Source of the DNA: a virus
DNA length: 31,556 bases
Virus record (IMG/VR): IMGVR_UViG_3300025896_000121
Coordinates: 1 to 31,556 of that record
Strand: one strand, 5' to 3'
Shown: positions 6,560 to 29,491 of the stretch, one piece after another
How the letters are laid out: each line of letters opens with the position of its first letter
How positions within the stretch are numbered: position 1 is the stretch's first letter
The notes under the pieces: generated by a model
What the model saw: only the letters and a program-made list of their open reading frames with translations
Databases searched by the model: none
What the model was told of the DNA's origin: nothing
Made by a program: the position numbers and the translations under genes

Positions 6560-6664
6560 TTAAACTCCCTTGATTGCGCATTCAACACAGCGCACCTGAA
6601 TAGTATTGTATTGTTTAAATTCTTGTTTACAGTCTTTGCAAAGTTTTGGTTTTATTTCTTTCAT
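6560..6664 (-). CDS. NinG-like zinc finger, 34-aa remnant
   Basis: The 34-residue product has two Cys pairs, C9-x2-C12 and C26-x2-C29, in the form 'LCKDCKQEF...RCVECAIKG'. This resembles the N-terminal zinc finger of the phage recombination protein NinG/Rap, where a similar 'CAI' follows the last Cys. Full NinG proteins are about 200 aa; here the frame ends right after the finger and no continuation is seen. It lies immediately downstream of the last cassette site. It may be a remnant or a mini-protein; function is uncertain. Confidence 0.5.
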   Translation of the reverse strand: MKEIKPKLCKDCKQEFKQYNTIQVRCVECAIKGV

Positions 6665-6673
6665 AGTTTTAAT

Positions 6674-6739
6674 TTATAACAAAGTATTAGCGCAATACAA
6701 ATGCTTCGCTTTGAACTTCGCCAATACGACTGTTAGCGG
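6674..6739 (-). repeat. attC-like site A (after the methyltransferase gene)
   Basis: A 66-bp site. On the minus strand the arms are CTAACAGTCGTATTGGCG and the near-complementary CGCTAATACTTTGTTAT, closed by a further TTCAAA/TTTG segment. R'' is GCCGCTAAC and R' is GTTATAA. The methyltransferase stop codon is 5 bases upstream. The R' matches no cassette and should be the end of the original insertion site. Confidence 0.8.
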
Positions 6740-6744
6740 CAACC

Positions 6745-7458
6745 CTAAAGACACCGCAGTTGACTAATTTCATCGTAAAATCTTTTGTCCGACTTGACAC
6801 ACATTTTTTCATCTACCTCAAAACCCACAAAATCAAAATCGTTTCTATAACAAGCTATTCGACTGCTTCCGCTTCCTGTATGCGTATCAAGTATTTTTTT
6901 TACACCTGTTCCAAATTCTTTTAAAATCCATTCATAAAGCATTACTGGTTTTTGCGTGGGGTGTATAATTATCTTGTCTTTTAACAAAAATCCGTGATGC
7001 TGTATTTTTACAATTTTTGAAACAGTATTAAAAGAGGTCCAAGCCATTTCAAAATCAGAGTGCTTAAACGAATACTTGTCTTTGTTCCATACAATCCAAC
7101 AACGGCTCTCTGGCAAGTCTTTTGTAAAGTAATTACCACCCCACATTATTATATTTTTTGATACCCTAAATAATTCAATAAAGTATTCATAATTTGGTCT
7201 TACATCCCACTCTTGCATCTCTCTCATTAACGTATTCATACGACACCCATCAGTATATCCGCTTATGCTTTTTTTATTATCAATGTTATAAGGTGGGTCG
7301 CAAATTGCAAGGTCAAAGTATTTGTCAGGATAGTGTTTCATTCCTGCAATACAATCCATATTATAAAGTTCTGACGAAGGGCAGCCGCTAACAGCACCCT
7401 TGCAAAAGCGGGGGTTCAGTGCTTCATTTGACACTTCTGTGGTAATATTATCATTCAT
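6745..7458 (-). CDS. cassette-borne DNA adenine methyltransferase (beta class)
   Basis: The amino-methyltransferase motif IV 'DPPY' (54-57) precedes the AdoMet-binding motif I 'DTHTGSGS' (191-198), so this is a beta-class enzyme, probably an adenine-N6 methyltransferase. 'HPTQKP' (166-171) is also conserved. It is clearly related to the second methyltransferase at 28871-29491 (shared 'YPDxYFDLAI', 'ELFRVSKN', 'WGGNY', 'FEMAWTS', 'HPTQKP'). No restriction gene is near. The start is uncertain. The ATG at 7458 lies in the loop of attC-like site B, so residues 1-25 would be encoded by the site. The ATG at 7359 ('MDCIAG') lies just inside the cassette, but starting there drops 'ELYN', which aligns with the start of the paralogue. 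Confidence 0.85.
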   Translation of the reverse strand: MNDNITTEVSNEALNPRFCKGAVSGCPSSELYNMDCIAGMKHYPDKYFDLAICDPPYNIDNKKSISGYTDGCRMNTLMREMQEWDVRPNYEYFIELFRVSKNIIMWGGNYFTKDLPESRCWIVWNKDKYSFKHSDFEMAWTSFNTVSKIVKIQHHGFLLKDKIIIHPTQKPVMLYEWILKEFGTGVKKILDTHTGSGSSRIACYRNDFDFVGFEVDEKMCVKSDKRFYDEISQLRCL

Positions 7459-7519
7459 CTTTCTAATTAAATTTAGTGGTTAAATGCCCCGCCTTCGCAA
7501 GGCTACAACTCGTTAGCGG
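7385..7519 (-). repeat. attC-like site B (after cassette 2)
   Basis: A 135-bp site. CCTTGCgAAgGCGGGG on the 5' arm matches the complement of the 3' arm with two changes, and the 5' spacer has extra bases, as in attC. R'' is ACCGCTAAC and R' is GTTAGCGGC. The ninth base differs within the site but matches across each neighbouring cassette. The large loop contains the ATG at 7458. Confidence 0.82.
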
Positions 7520-7524
7520 TCAGG

Positions 7525-7728
7525 CTAAGAAACGACCTCGTAAGTATCAACTTCGACATCTTTAATTTCTACACCTTTACCAATGACAGGGAGTGTTGTA
7601 AATCGGTAATGAACCAAATCTTCAATCATTCCTTCTTCGTTGTCGTAATCTTTTACATAAGAACTCTCTGTATCTACTTCTAATTCATAGATAAATGTTG
7701 CTTGTACTTTTACTGTTTTTTTTGACAT
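7525..7728 (-). CDS. cassette gene 2, hypothetical acidic protein, 67 aa
   Basis: The ATG at 7728 (MSKKTVKVQA) is preferred, because the longer frame begins with TTG inside the stem of site C. The product is acidic and probably beta-rich ('KVQATFIYELEVDT', 'GKGVEIKDVEVDTYEVVS'), with no family I recognise. The stop is 5 bases before the R'' box of site B, the usual compact layout of an integron cassette. Small unknown proteins are common cassette cargo. Confidence 0.72.
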   Translation of the reverse strand: MSKKTVKVQATFIYELEVDTESSYVKDYDNEEGMIEDLVHYRFTTLPVIGKGVEIKDVEVDTYEVVS

Positions 7729-7774
7729 TGTTTTATTATTTAAAATTTTATACCCTTGTGAAATCAAGCCCGAA

Positions 7775-7908
7775 CCGCTAACAAGGGCTTGTAGCAATAG
7801 GGGCAGAAGTGCTTTAATTCAGCTGTGTACTTCTAATCAGCTTTAGTGGTATATTGAACAGTAGTGCATCTAATCCCCTACTCCTACAAGCCCCGATACG
7901 TTATGTGC
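7775..7908 (-). repeat. attC-like site C (after cassette 3)
   Basis: A 134-bp site. GGCTTGTAGgAgTAGGGG on one arm matches the complement of the other with two changes. R'' is GCACATAAC and R' is GTTAGCGGT. The R'' is complementary to the R' of site D, not to its own R'. Confidence 0.82.
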
Positions 7909-7915
7909 AAGGCTA

Positions 7916-8089
7916 CTATTCCGCTTCGATATGATTATATATTAATTTCATTACCCAAGCATTTTCAAACTCATACACTCCGCAAGTCAAACAAGCATCT
8001 TCTTCGGTATCATAATAGTTTATTTTACCTTCTTCATTTTTCATAAAGTCCATATTTCTAAGGTCTATTATTACATATTGGTCTTTCAT
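7916..8089 (-). CDS. cassette gene 3, hypothetical acidic protein, 57 aa
   Basis: A 57-residue acidic protein (start 'MKDQYVIIDLRNMDFM', end 'IYNHIEAE') with one C-x2-C pair ('ACLTCGVYE', Cys33 and Cys36). No family is recognised. It lies between sites D and C in cassette orientation and stops (TAG TAG) 8 bases before the R'' box of site C. The second half may be a small metal-binding unit. Function is unknown. Confidence 0.68.
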   Translation of the reverse strand: MKDQYVIIDLRNMDFMKNEEGKINYYDTEEDACLTCGVYEFENAWVMKLIYNHIEAE

Positions 8090-8128
8090 TTCGTTTTCAA
8101 ATTAAATTCAGTGCTGATAATCCGCCCA

Positions 8129-8226
8129 GCACATAACAGTGGTTTGGCAAAATACCGCCACAAGCCTTTGTACTAAATTTCAACATTCTGCAAGGCGGTA
8201 CTTCGCCAAACCACCAAACGTTAAAA
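8129..8226 (-). repeat. attC-like site D (first site of the array)
   Basis: A 98-bp site. On the plus strand GTGGTTTGGC...TACCGCC pairs with GGCGGTA...GCCAAACCAC, with extra unpaired bases on one arm. R'' is TTTTAAC and R' is GTTATGTGC. R'' nearly complements the R' of site A (one mismatch in seven), which suggests that D and A together formed the original empty site. Confidence 0.82.
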
Positions 8227-8249
8227 GGGGTGGCAGTTAATACCACCCC
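8223..8249 (-). terminator. rho-independent terminator after the DUF3127 gene
   Basis: On the minus strand GGGGTGG and CCACCCC form a stem with a 9-nt loop, followed by TTTT. The T-run doubles as the R'' box of site D. The array thus lies directly behind a terminator, which would limit read-through from the phage operon into the cassettes. Confidence 0.78.
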
Positions 8250-8256
8250 CTTAATT

Positions 8257-8544
8257 TTACCAAGGTAAATCGCTAAATGCTTTACTTAAACTAATTGCAT
8301 TGATATTATGATAATATTTGCCATTAAATTCTCTGCTATCTATACTAAATGTTACTTCTACCTCACCACCTACTTTGTGGTTTAATAATTCATCTTGTTT
8401 CATTAATGTAAAACAAATTAATTTGGGGTATTTCGGATCAAGTGTTTCAATTACTAATTCACTTTTATTCCATTCTTTACCTGCTTTTGTTAAGCCTGAT
8501 ACTACTTCACCGATTTGGGTGATTTTTCCTTTTACTTTGTACAT
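8257..8544 (-). CDS. DUF3127 OB-fold protein (SSB-like)
   Basis: This 95-aa protein matches DUF3127, an OB-fold family common in Bacteroidota and their phages. It shows 'GKITQIGEVVSGLTKAGKEW', a central 'YPKLICFTLMKQDEL' strand and a C-terminal acidic/aromatic tip ('FSDLPW') like that of single-stranded DNA-binding proteins. It probably binds ssDNA during replication or recombination. It is the last gene before the terminator and the cassette array, with the HTH gene 2 bases upstream. Confidence 0.85.
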   Translation of the reverse strand: MYKVKGKITQIGEVVSGLTKAGKEWNKSELVIETLDPKYPKLICFTLMKQDELLNHKVGGEVEVTFSIDSREFNGKYYHNINAISLSKAFSDLPW

Positions 8545-8546
8545 AT

Positions 8547-8822
8547 TTATTCGATTATTATTTGTTTTTTATGTTTATCAAAAAAGTTTTCAAGATCAAT
8601 TTTTTTTACCCAAATTTTAGCGCCTACTTGAATAAATGGAATTACCCCATTATCTCTATAAGTTTGCCAAGTTTTTAAACTTATTCCTAATATATCAGGA
8701 ATTTTCTTTGATTCGATAAATGATTCTTTTATATCATTTTCTGCTGTTTTGTTAATTAATAATGCTTTTATTTCTAAAAGTGTATTCATTAATTTTTTAT
8801 TGTCGATTACTGTTATTTCCAT
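8547..8822 (-). CDS. excisionase-like HTH DNA-binding protein
   Basis: A 91-aa protein. Residues about 38-85 form an HTH_17/MerR-like domain ('IPDILGISLKTWQTYRDNGVI' region, then 'WVKKIDLENFFDKH'). The N-terminal half is a helical extension. This domain occurs in excisionases and in many Bacteroidota mobile-element proteins. No integrase is present, so a role as transcription regulator is as likely as one in excision. Confidence 0.75.
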   Translation of the reverse strand: MEITVIDNKKLMNTLLEIKALLINKTAENDIKESFIESKKIPDILGISLKTWQTYRDNGVIPFIQVGAKIWVKKIDLENFFDKHKKQIIIE

Positions 8823-28700: not shown

Positions 28701-28874
28701 CTAATATAGCCCAAAATAATAGTTCTTACTTCTTTTAAAGCTATTATAAGTTTTAAACCTATTTCTTTTAAACTTATCAAAATACTCTACTTCTAAAGCA
28801 ATATAAGCTTGTTCTCCATTTATGTGAAATGGTAATAAATTGTAATAGCGTTGAAAATACTCAGTGATTGTCAT
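28701..28874 (-). CDS. small hypothetical protein, 57 aa, Tyr/Phe-rich
   Basis: Its ATG overlaps the methyltransferase stop (ATGA). The product is rich in Tyr, Phe and basic residues ('MTITEYFQRYYNLLPFHING', 'EVEYFDKFKRNRF', 'RSKNYYFGLY'). No family is recognised. It fills the gap between the methyltransferase and the portal; 46 bases of non-coding DNA follow. Confidence 0.58.
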   Translation of the reverse strand: MTITEYFQRYYNLLPFHINGEQAYIALEVEYFDKFKRNRFKTYNSFKRSKNYYFGLY

Positions 28875-29491
28875 AATATTAATCTTTGTTGTAGCTTGTG
28901 GTTATTTATTCGTTCAATTGCTTTATCAAAATATTCTTTATCTAATTCGCAAGCTGTTAATTCAAATCCGTAATCGTGGCAGGCTATTGCTATTGAGCCA
29001 CTACCTAAATGAGTATCGAGTATTTTATCGCCTTGCTTTGCGTATTTGTCTAAAATCCATTTGTAAAGTGCTACTGGTTTTTGAGTGGGGTGTATTCTGT
29101 TTGTATTAGCGGCAGCATTAAAATCGTATTTTTTACAGCTGCTTTTTAATGAAGTCCAAGCCATTTCAAATTGTGCAAAGGTAACATCTTCACTAAATCC
29201 TTTATCCCATAATAACCAACAAGAAGATGGTGTTAAATAATCTGTCATATAATTACCACCCCAAATTATTTGATTTTTAGATACTCTAAATAATTCATTA
29301 AAATAATATTCATTTGGTATTTCACTATCATTACCTGCAAATTTATGGTAATCACTTTTTTTATCTCCCTTTCTTCTACCCATTGAAACATTTATATTTA
29401 TCCCATAAGGTGGGTCAACAATAGCTAAATCAAAATAGTTATCAGGATAACGTGCCATAAGCACCATATTATCTTCGTTAGTTATTTTCAT
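28871..29491 (-). CDS. DNA adenine methyltransferase (beta class), packaging-cluster copy
   Basis: A 206-aa enzyme. 'DPPYG' (motif IV, 26-30) precedes the AdoMet motif I 'DTHLGSGS' (159-166), with 'HPTQKP' at 134-139. It is a paralogue of the cassette-borne enzyme at 6745-7458. It lies between terminase and portal genes with 4-base overlaps, a known place for orphan methyltransferases in phages. It may protect phage DNA from host restriction or mark it. The recognition sequence cannot be read from the protein. Confidence 0.88.
   Translation of the reverse strand: MKITNEDNMVLMARYPDNYFDLAIVDPPYGININVSMGRRKGDKKSDYHKFAGNDSEIPNEYYFNELFRVSKNQIIWGGNYMTDYLTPSSCWLLWDKGFSEDVTFAQFEMAWTSLKSSCKKYDFNAAANTNRIHPTQKPVALYKWILDKYAKQGDKILDTHLGSGSIAIACHDYGFELTACELDKEYFDKAIERINNHKLQQRLIL

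Follow-up and report, generated by a model that had tools for sequence, protein, structure and literature searches.

Integrons and CALINs are described in terms of IntI, attI and attC (IntegronFinder definitions, PMC9024848). Integrons are reported to be nearly absent from the Bacteroidetes, with one complete example in Salinibacter ruber (PMC9024848). Phage CALINs and integrons have already been described (Qi et al., 2023; PMC9892861): the portions of that paper available to us report integrase-less phage cassette arrays with methyltransferase cargo, the use of classical attC models (IntegronFinder, HattCI), and recombination by IntI1 of five of six phage attC sites tested. The original prediction for our locus treated a well-described CALIN in a phage genome as not known; on this point Qi et al. 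supersede it. The same portions contain no description of a Bacteroidia recombinase, of complete systems of the present type, or of movement between isolates. Baltic Flavobacterium phages of the Muminvirus and Lillamyvirus groups are cultured and have variable methyltransferase genes, a content that the authors linked to whether the phages plate on LMO6 or LMO9; their paper never uses the word "integron" (PMC7077304). Here we compare these systems with a cassette array in a phage genome, which very likely represents three cassettes of a distinct Bacteroidia/phage integron type with its own sites, an IntI-sister recombinase and an attI-like core.

The window, by which we mean the whole 31,556-nt stretch of DNA analysed, corresponds to an IMG/VR record and encodes a terminase, portal, capsid, primase and exonuclease. 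Read along the minus strand from 8231 to 6669, the array alternates four stem sites, whose arms carry AAC...GTT, with three co-oriented genes (Table 1). With at least two attC-like sites and no integrase on the replicon, this array is a phage CALIN. The predicted absence of an integrase holds, as the window has no TIGR02249 (canonical IntI) match in a 31.5-kb record that may be incomplete. No attI-like core is recognised in the window, and an Rfam scan of it gave no match above gathering scores. A stem-site scan scores three sites at 49, 41 and 40 and the fourth, site D, at 28; shuffled windows yield 0.57 weak sites per window strand and a best score of 28, so that site D, taken alone, is unconvincing. 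Its left core matches the core of the methyltransferase cassette. Single-strand folding, proposed at the outset as a check, gives the minus-strand z values of Table 1, and at the three strong sites (A, B and C) folding favours the gene-carrying strand over its complement. All sites but one measure ~106-143 nt, which corrects the 66-135 bp first given. The motif GCGAAG occurs in three sites, as had been noticed, site B (7911-7771) being the exception. Each gene stops 4-6 bases ahead of the next core, and in 3/3 window cassettes the six bases next to AAC at the end, once reverse-complemented, are identical to the six next to GTT at the gene start (shuffles, ~3%). Stem scores, folds and matched cores thus bear out the four attC-like repeats with GTT/AAC cores that were said to bound three co-oriented genes.

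Table 1. Features of the cassette array and its surroundings in the window. R1 is the covariance model of these sites; its E-values are rough.
Feature	Position	Strand	Cores	Evidence
attC-like site A	8126..8231	-	TTTTAAC ... GTTATGTGC	R1 65.7 bits, E 3.5e-12; outside R1 training set; DNA fold z -4.2
Cassette gene 1, 57 aa, no assigned function	7916..8089	-	flanking, GTTATGTGC/GCACATAAC	ORF
attC-like site B	7771..7911	-	GCACATAAC ... GTTAGCGGT	R1 111 bits (member of R1 training set); DNA fold z -2.8
Cassette gene 2, 67 aa, no assigned function	7525..7728	-	flanking, GTTAGCGGT/ACCGCTAAC	
attC-like site C	7381..7523	-	ACCGCTAAC ... GTTAGCGGC	R1 114 bits (member of R1 training set); DNA fold z -4.4
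Cassette gene 3, N6/N4 DNA methyltransferase	6745..7458	-	flanking, GTTAGCGGC/GCCGCTAAC	PF01555 1e-9; phrog_67 5e-30
End-of-array site D, short, weak	6669..6743	-	GCCGCTAAC ... GTTATAAAT	R1 22.8 bits, E 0.005; DNA fold z -0.8
Replacement module	6585..8815			HTH gene, DUF3127 ssb-like gene, array, small zinc-ribbon-like ORF

Cassette gene 1 has no match in a Pfam search. The product of gene 2 has a homologue, 92% identical, in a phage contig (L084, 4797-5320), the single contig found when relatives were searched through this gene. Similarity begins precisely at GTTAGCGG, and the homologue is flanked by other sites on both sides; the pairing of gene and site can therefore change. The loop of site C contains the methyltransferase start codon, and the ORF runs from this loop in frame through GCT GTT AGC. 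We place the start at 7458, inside the loop, and translation may instead begin at an internal start at 7362. Methyltransferase homologues in other phages are also preceded by the same kind of site; the plasmid records searched hold one match to the methyltransferase. Outside the array, beside the terminase, the window has another DNA methyltransferase at 28871-29491 (-), which belongs to the same PHROG family.

We collected related sites, seeded with site C, from viral contigs, the cultured phage hemulen6-1 and Bacteroidia chromosomes. Site C has sequence relatives in these chromosomes: a 17-mer from it gives 22 genome matches, mostly chance, and a site is present in six of the seven Bacteroidota matches inspected. 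A simple stem scanner missed or misplaced cores and was replaced by a covariance model. In an alignment of 28 diverse sites, 97.5% of cells are paired and 16 of 23 pairs show compensatory changes, values reached by 0 of 500 shuffles. The family site is ~110-145 nt long, folds on one strand and is flanked by the cores GCnnnTAAC and GTTAnnnGC. Its stem arms are equal in length and free of bulges. Conserved mispairs stand at columns 29/125 and 33/122, G-T on the gene-carrying (model) strand of the window and C-A on the complement, where classical attC sites have bulged bases. In the loop columns (40-114) of alignment A1, a motif of ~22-25 nt (CACnAAAgTTnAATnGAAG) recurs.

Two models separate these sites from classical attC, with E-values that are rough in both cases. 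R1, trained on sites B and C among others, gives classical attC sites at most 31 bits; an earlier covariance model trained without site B recovered it at E 1.8e-7. R2, a classical attC model that we built from arrays of IntI-bearing Bacteroidota, recovers many classical attC sites outside its training and finds none in the window. The layout and matched cores expected of attC sites are thus present, but the sites are not classical: they lack R2 matches, have equal arms with mispairs in place of extrahelical bases, and carry the core GTTAnnnGC rather than GTTRRRY.

R1 sites occur in 209 of 295 Bacteroidia genomes and in 0 of 10 genomes outside the class. Five rescanned Bacteroidia genomes hold 22-27 sites each, many in co-oriented arrays. 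TIGR02249 integrases score above cutoff in 105 of 395 genomes across the phylum versus 1 of 395 in class Bacteroidia, and seven genomes bearing or matching look-alike sites have no canonical IntI. In six genomes, a tyrosine recombinase adjoins the arrays. In these array-end recombinases, the TIGR02249 match is split in two at the IntI insertion and scores 187-211 bits against a cutoff of 265; the IntI-specific insertion of ~40 residues that marks the integrase of a canonical integron is absent from them. Measured from GxRxxE to HxLRH, the spacing is 133 in IntI, ~92 in the array-end recombinases and 86 in the viral ones. In our tree, IntI forms one clade (100/100) and the array recombinase family is placed as its sister with moderate support (90/79 and 89/88). 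The recombinases resemble XerA, XerH and NF040815 proteins in fold and catalytic motifs, but the Xer proteins of the same genomes lie outside their clade. The predicted recombinase structure is about equally close to XerA (5hxy, Z 20.0) and IntI4 (2a3v, Z 18.7), so that structure comparison fails to separate IntI from Xer; among NCBIfam models, NF040815 scores highest on the five recombinases tested. Sites are present in 139 of the 147 genomes that have the recombinase and in 70 of the remaining 148 (295 genomes; odds ratio 19, p 8e-21). The 70 site-bearing genomes without a recombinase at cutoff could reflect incomplete assemblies, orphan arrays or another enzyme. The recombinase probably acts on these sites.

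Given these data, we consider it improbable that the window holds an ordinary CALIN, that is, classical attC cassettes recombined by the canonical IntI of a transient or earlier host. Such a CALIN would account for the attC-like layout and matched cores, and certain phage attC sites, one of the two from Polaribacter phage P12002L that Qi et al. tested among them, are indeed recombined by IntI1. However, a classical attC model from the same phylum that finds sites outside its training finds none here, IntI scores above cutoff in a single sampled genome of the class, and a different recombinase adjoins the arrays. R1 gives a single weak site in this Polaribacter phage, P12002L, at 37.5 bits (L111, 39114-39253, minus strand).

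Two further traits bear comparison with integrons. A candidate attI, an attI-like core, is seen at fixed spacing in the Bacteroidia and viral systems, and also in cultured phages. In chromosomes, TATAnnnnAGTTAnnnGC lies mostly ~70-125 nt past the recombinase stop (20/31; 2.2 expected), a downstream position unlike that in integrons; in front of viral recombinases stands TAACnnnTATAT, for the most part 45 or 60 nt from their start (41/60; 1.4 expected). Two contigs (G521 C21, or L240, and G449 C14, or L344) stop right at the attI-like AGTT or AGTTA, in the way that assemblies break at a variable joint. Several more end ~1-2 kb after the recombinase, as if the first cassettes vary in the sampled population. 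The second trait is a matched core at both ends of a cassette: the six core bases agree throughout in 75% of 63 chromosomal and 48% of 58 viral cassettes. Shuffling gives 3% (at most 14% in 2000 shuffles), and the paired cores within a single site agree in 1-2%. Gene polarity differs between replicons, with 78 of 79 phage genes on the model strand and 85 of 94 chromosomal genes on the opposite one; ~40% of phage cassette genes start within the site.

Many viral contigs carry a complete system of recombinase and array; the window and the cultured Flavobacterium phages have the array only. Recombinase-bearing viral contigs contain 208 R1 matches, of which 207 are on the recombinase strand; the one exception is the complement of a site already counted. 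A terminase is encoded as well on some of these contigs; others may be host fragments. Arrays of these sites are also found in two uncultured phage records of 634-642 kb (L001 and L002; LR756502 and LR745206).

The cultured phages record cassette movement. Hemulen6-1 has 15 R1 sites and no recombinase match in its complete genome. Thirteen cultured Flavobacterium phage isolates share TAACTACAATATTACATG, preceded by differing cassette ends, and their alignment diverges exactly at TAAC. A 439-bp unit lies inside the array in lillamy9-6 and at the attI-like end in lillamy9-7, where its vacated place is closed to ACATAACGTTAAAGC. Mumin6-1 and 6-3, and sniff9-1 and 9-2, differ by one unit per pair, with joints at TAACG. 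Single genes thus move with a site and are joined at the core in three isolate pairs, one of them a relocation to the attI-like end. Whereas the earlier study reported variable methyltransferase genes, we find that the variable regions are cassette arrays with exact unit gains, losses and this one relocation. Comparison of isolates shows that the mobile unit is a site together with the next gene along the model strand (minus in the window), that joints fall at TA/ACG, and that units enter at the attI-like end. This replaces the gene-then-site cassette first envisaged. We dropped the idea of a start codon lent to each gene by the cassette before it, as site and following gene travel together in these movements. 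The prediction that such cassettes are movable holds, but the proposed reshuffling by a canonical host IntI acting in trans is improbable: the likely partner is the IntI-sister recombinase.

The array is absent from relatives of the window phage whose primase is 95-97% identical, so that the suggested search of close relatives did reveal a place without cassettes. Between the ssb-like gene and the primase, these relatives have ~420 bp, versus 2164 here. The flanks of the replacement module are 92-94% identical to those in one relative, L005, and the interval 6585..8815 is not alignable. Homology restarts at 6585 and, for L005, at 8815; the ssb-like gene of the window is only 31-41% identical to that of the relatives, and the left edge of the module keeps a remnant of the C-terminus of their version, FNGKYYTNLNCFEIN. 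From these limits, the divergent gene and the remnant, we read the array as probably brought in with neighbouring genes by block exchange rather than inserted in place. In two of the relatives (L006, 4950-7340; L013, 2200-4600), a ParB-like and PAPS-reductase-like pair, judged by eye, lies just upstream of the ssb-like gene.

Block exchange of this kind, and the readiness with which phages recombine, could suggest that cassettes move by homologous recombination through annealing proteins, with the sites serving as homology arms or terminators. We regard this as very improbable for the cassettes themselves: their joints fall at a 5-7 base core and not in long homology, gene-flanking cores match despite differing sites, stems show compensatory changes, insertion has an attI-like point, and the sites are tightly associated with one recombinase family. 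Hardly any weight falls to transposase-spread REP/MITE-like repeats with intervening genes caught by chance, a reading already disfavoured, for which the abundance of sites in Bacteroidia chromosomes and their repeated loop motifs could be cited, but against which stand co-oriented arrays in which genes keep one polarity (chromosomes, 85:9; phages, 78:1), cores that match gene by gene and the movement of entire site-plus-gene units; the ordinary interspersed repeats, not bounding genes, against which the original prediction was to be checked are not what we find.

We return to an integron type of its own. Like integrons and CALINs, it has a recombinase gene, beside it a putative attI-like site with a GTT core, co-oriented arrays of genes and folded sites, and matched cassette cores. 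In this model, the host or another phage would supply the recombinase, which would act on the folded single strand, and arrays without a recombinase, as in the window and the cultured Flavobacterium phages, would be worked on in trans. Phages could in this way swap cassette genes such as DNA methyltransferases against host restriction; the window array itself would have entered its phage as a block with its neighbours. It is likely that the Bacteroidia and phages use their own major integron class, defined by an IntI-sister recombinase and mispaired-stem sites, with at least 20 sites in individual chromosomes, complete or orphan copies in many phages, and phage genes that run against the usual site polarity and often start from the site. 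Searches that demand the IntI insertion and classical attC sites would have missed such a class. We found no paper on Bacteroidia integrons of this kind, a weak absence in a search that left bioRxiv preprints and most subscription papers outside; as far as found, the type is undescribed.

In the sampled Bacteroidia genomes, the recombinase is present in about half and the sites in ~70%, and the system extends to many viral contigs. If our reading is true, a phylum dominant in gut, soil and water would hold a large hidden pool of cassettes, and phages would gain a way to exchange methyltransferases rapidly. It would become testable whether the insertion was needed for IntI to act on folded single-strand sites, and cultured phages with near-identical arrays make the system directly accessible to experiment.
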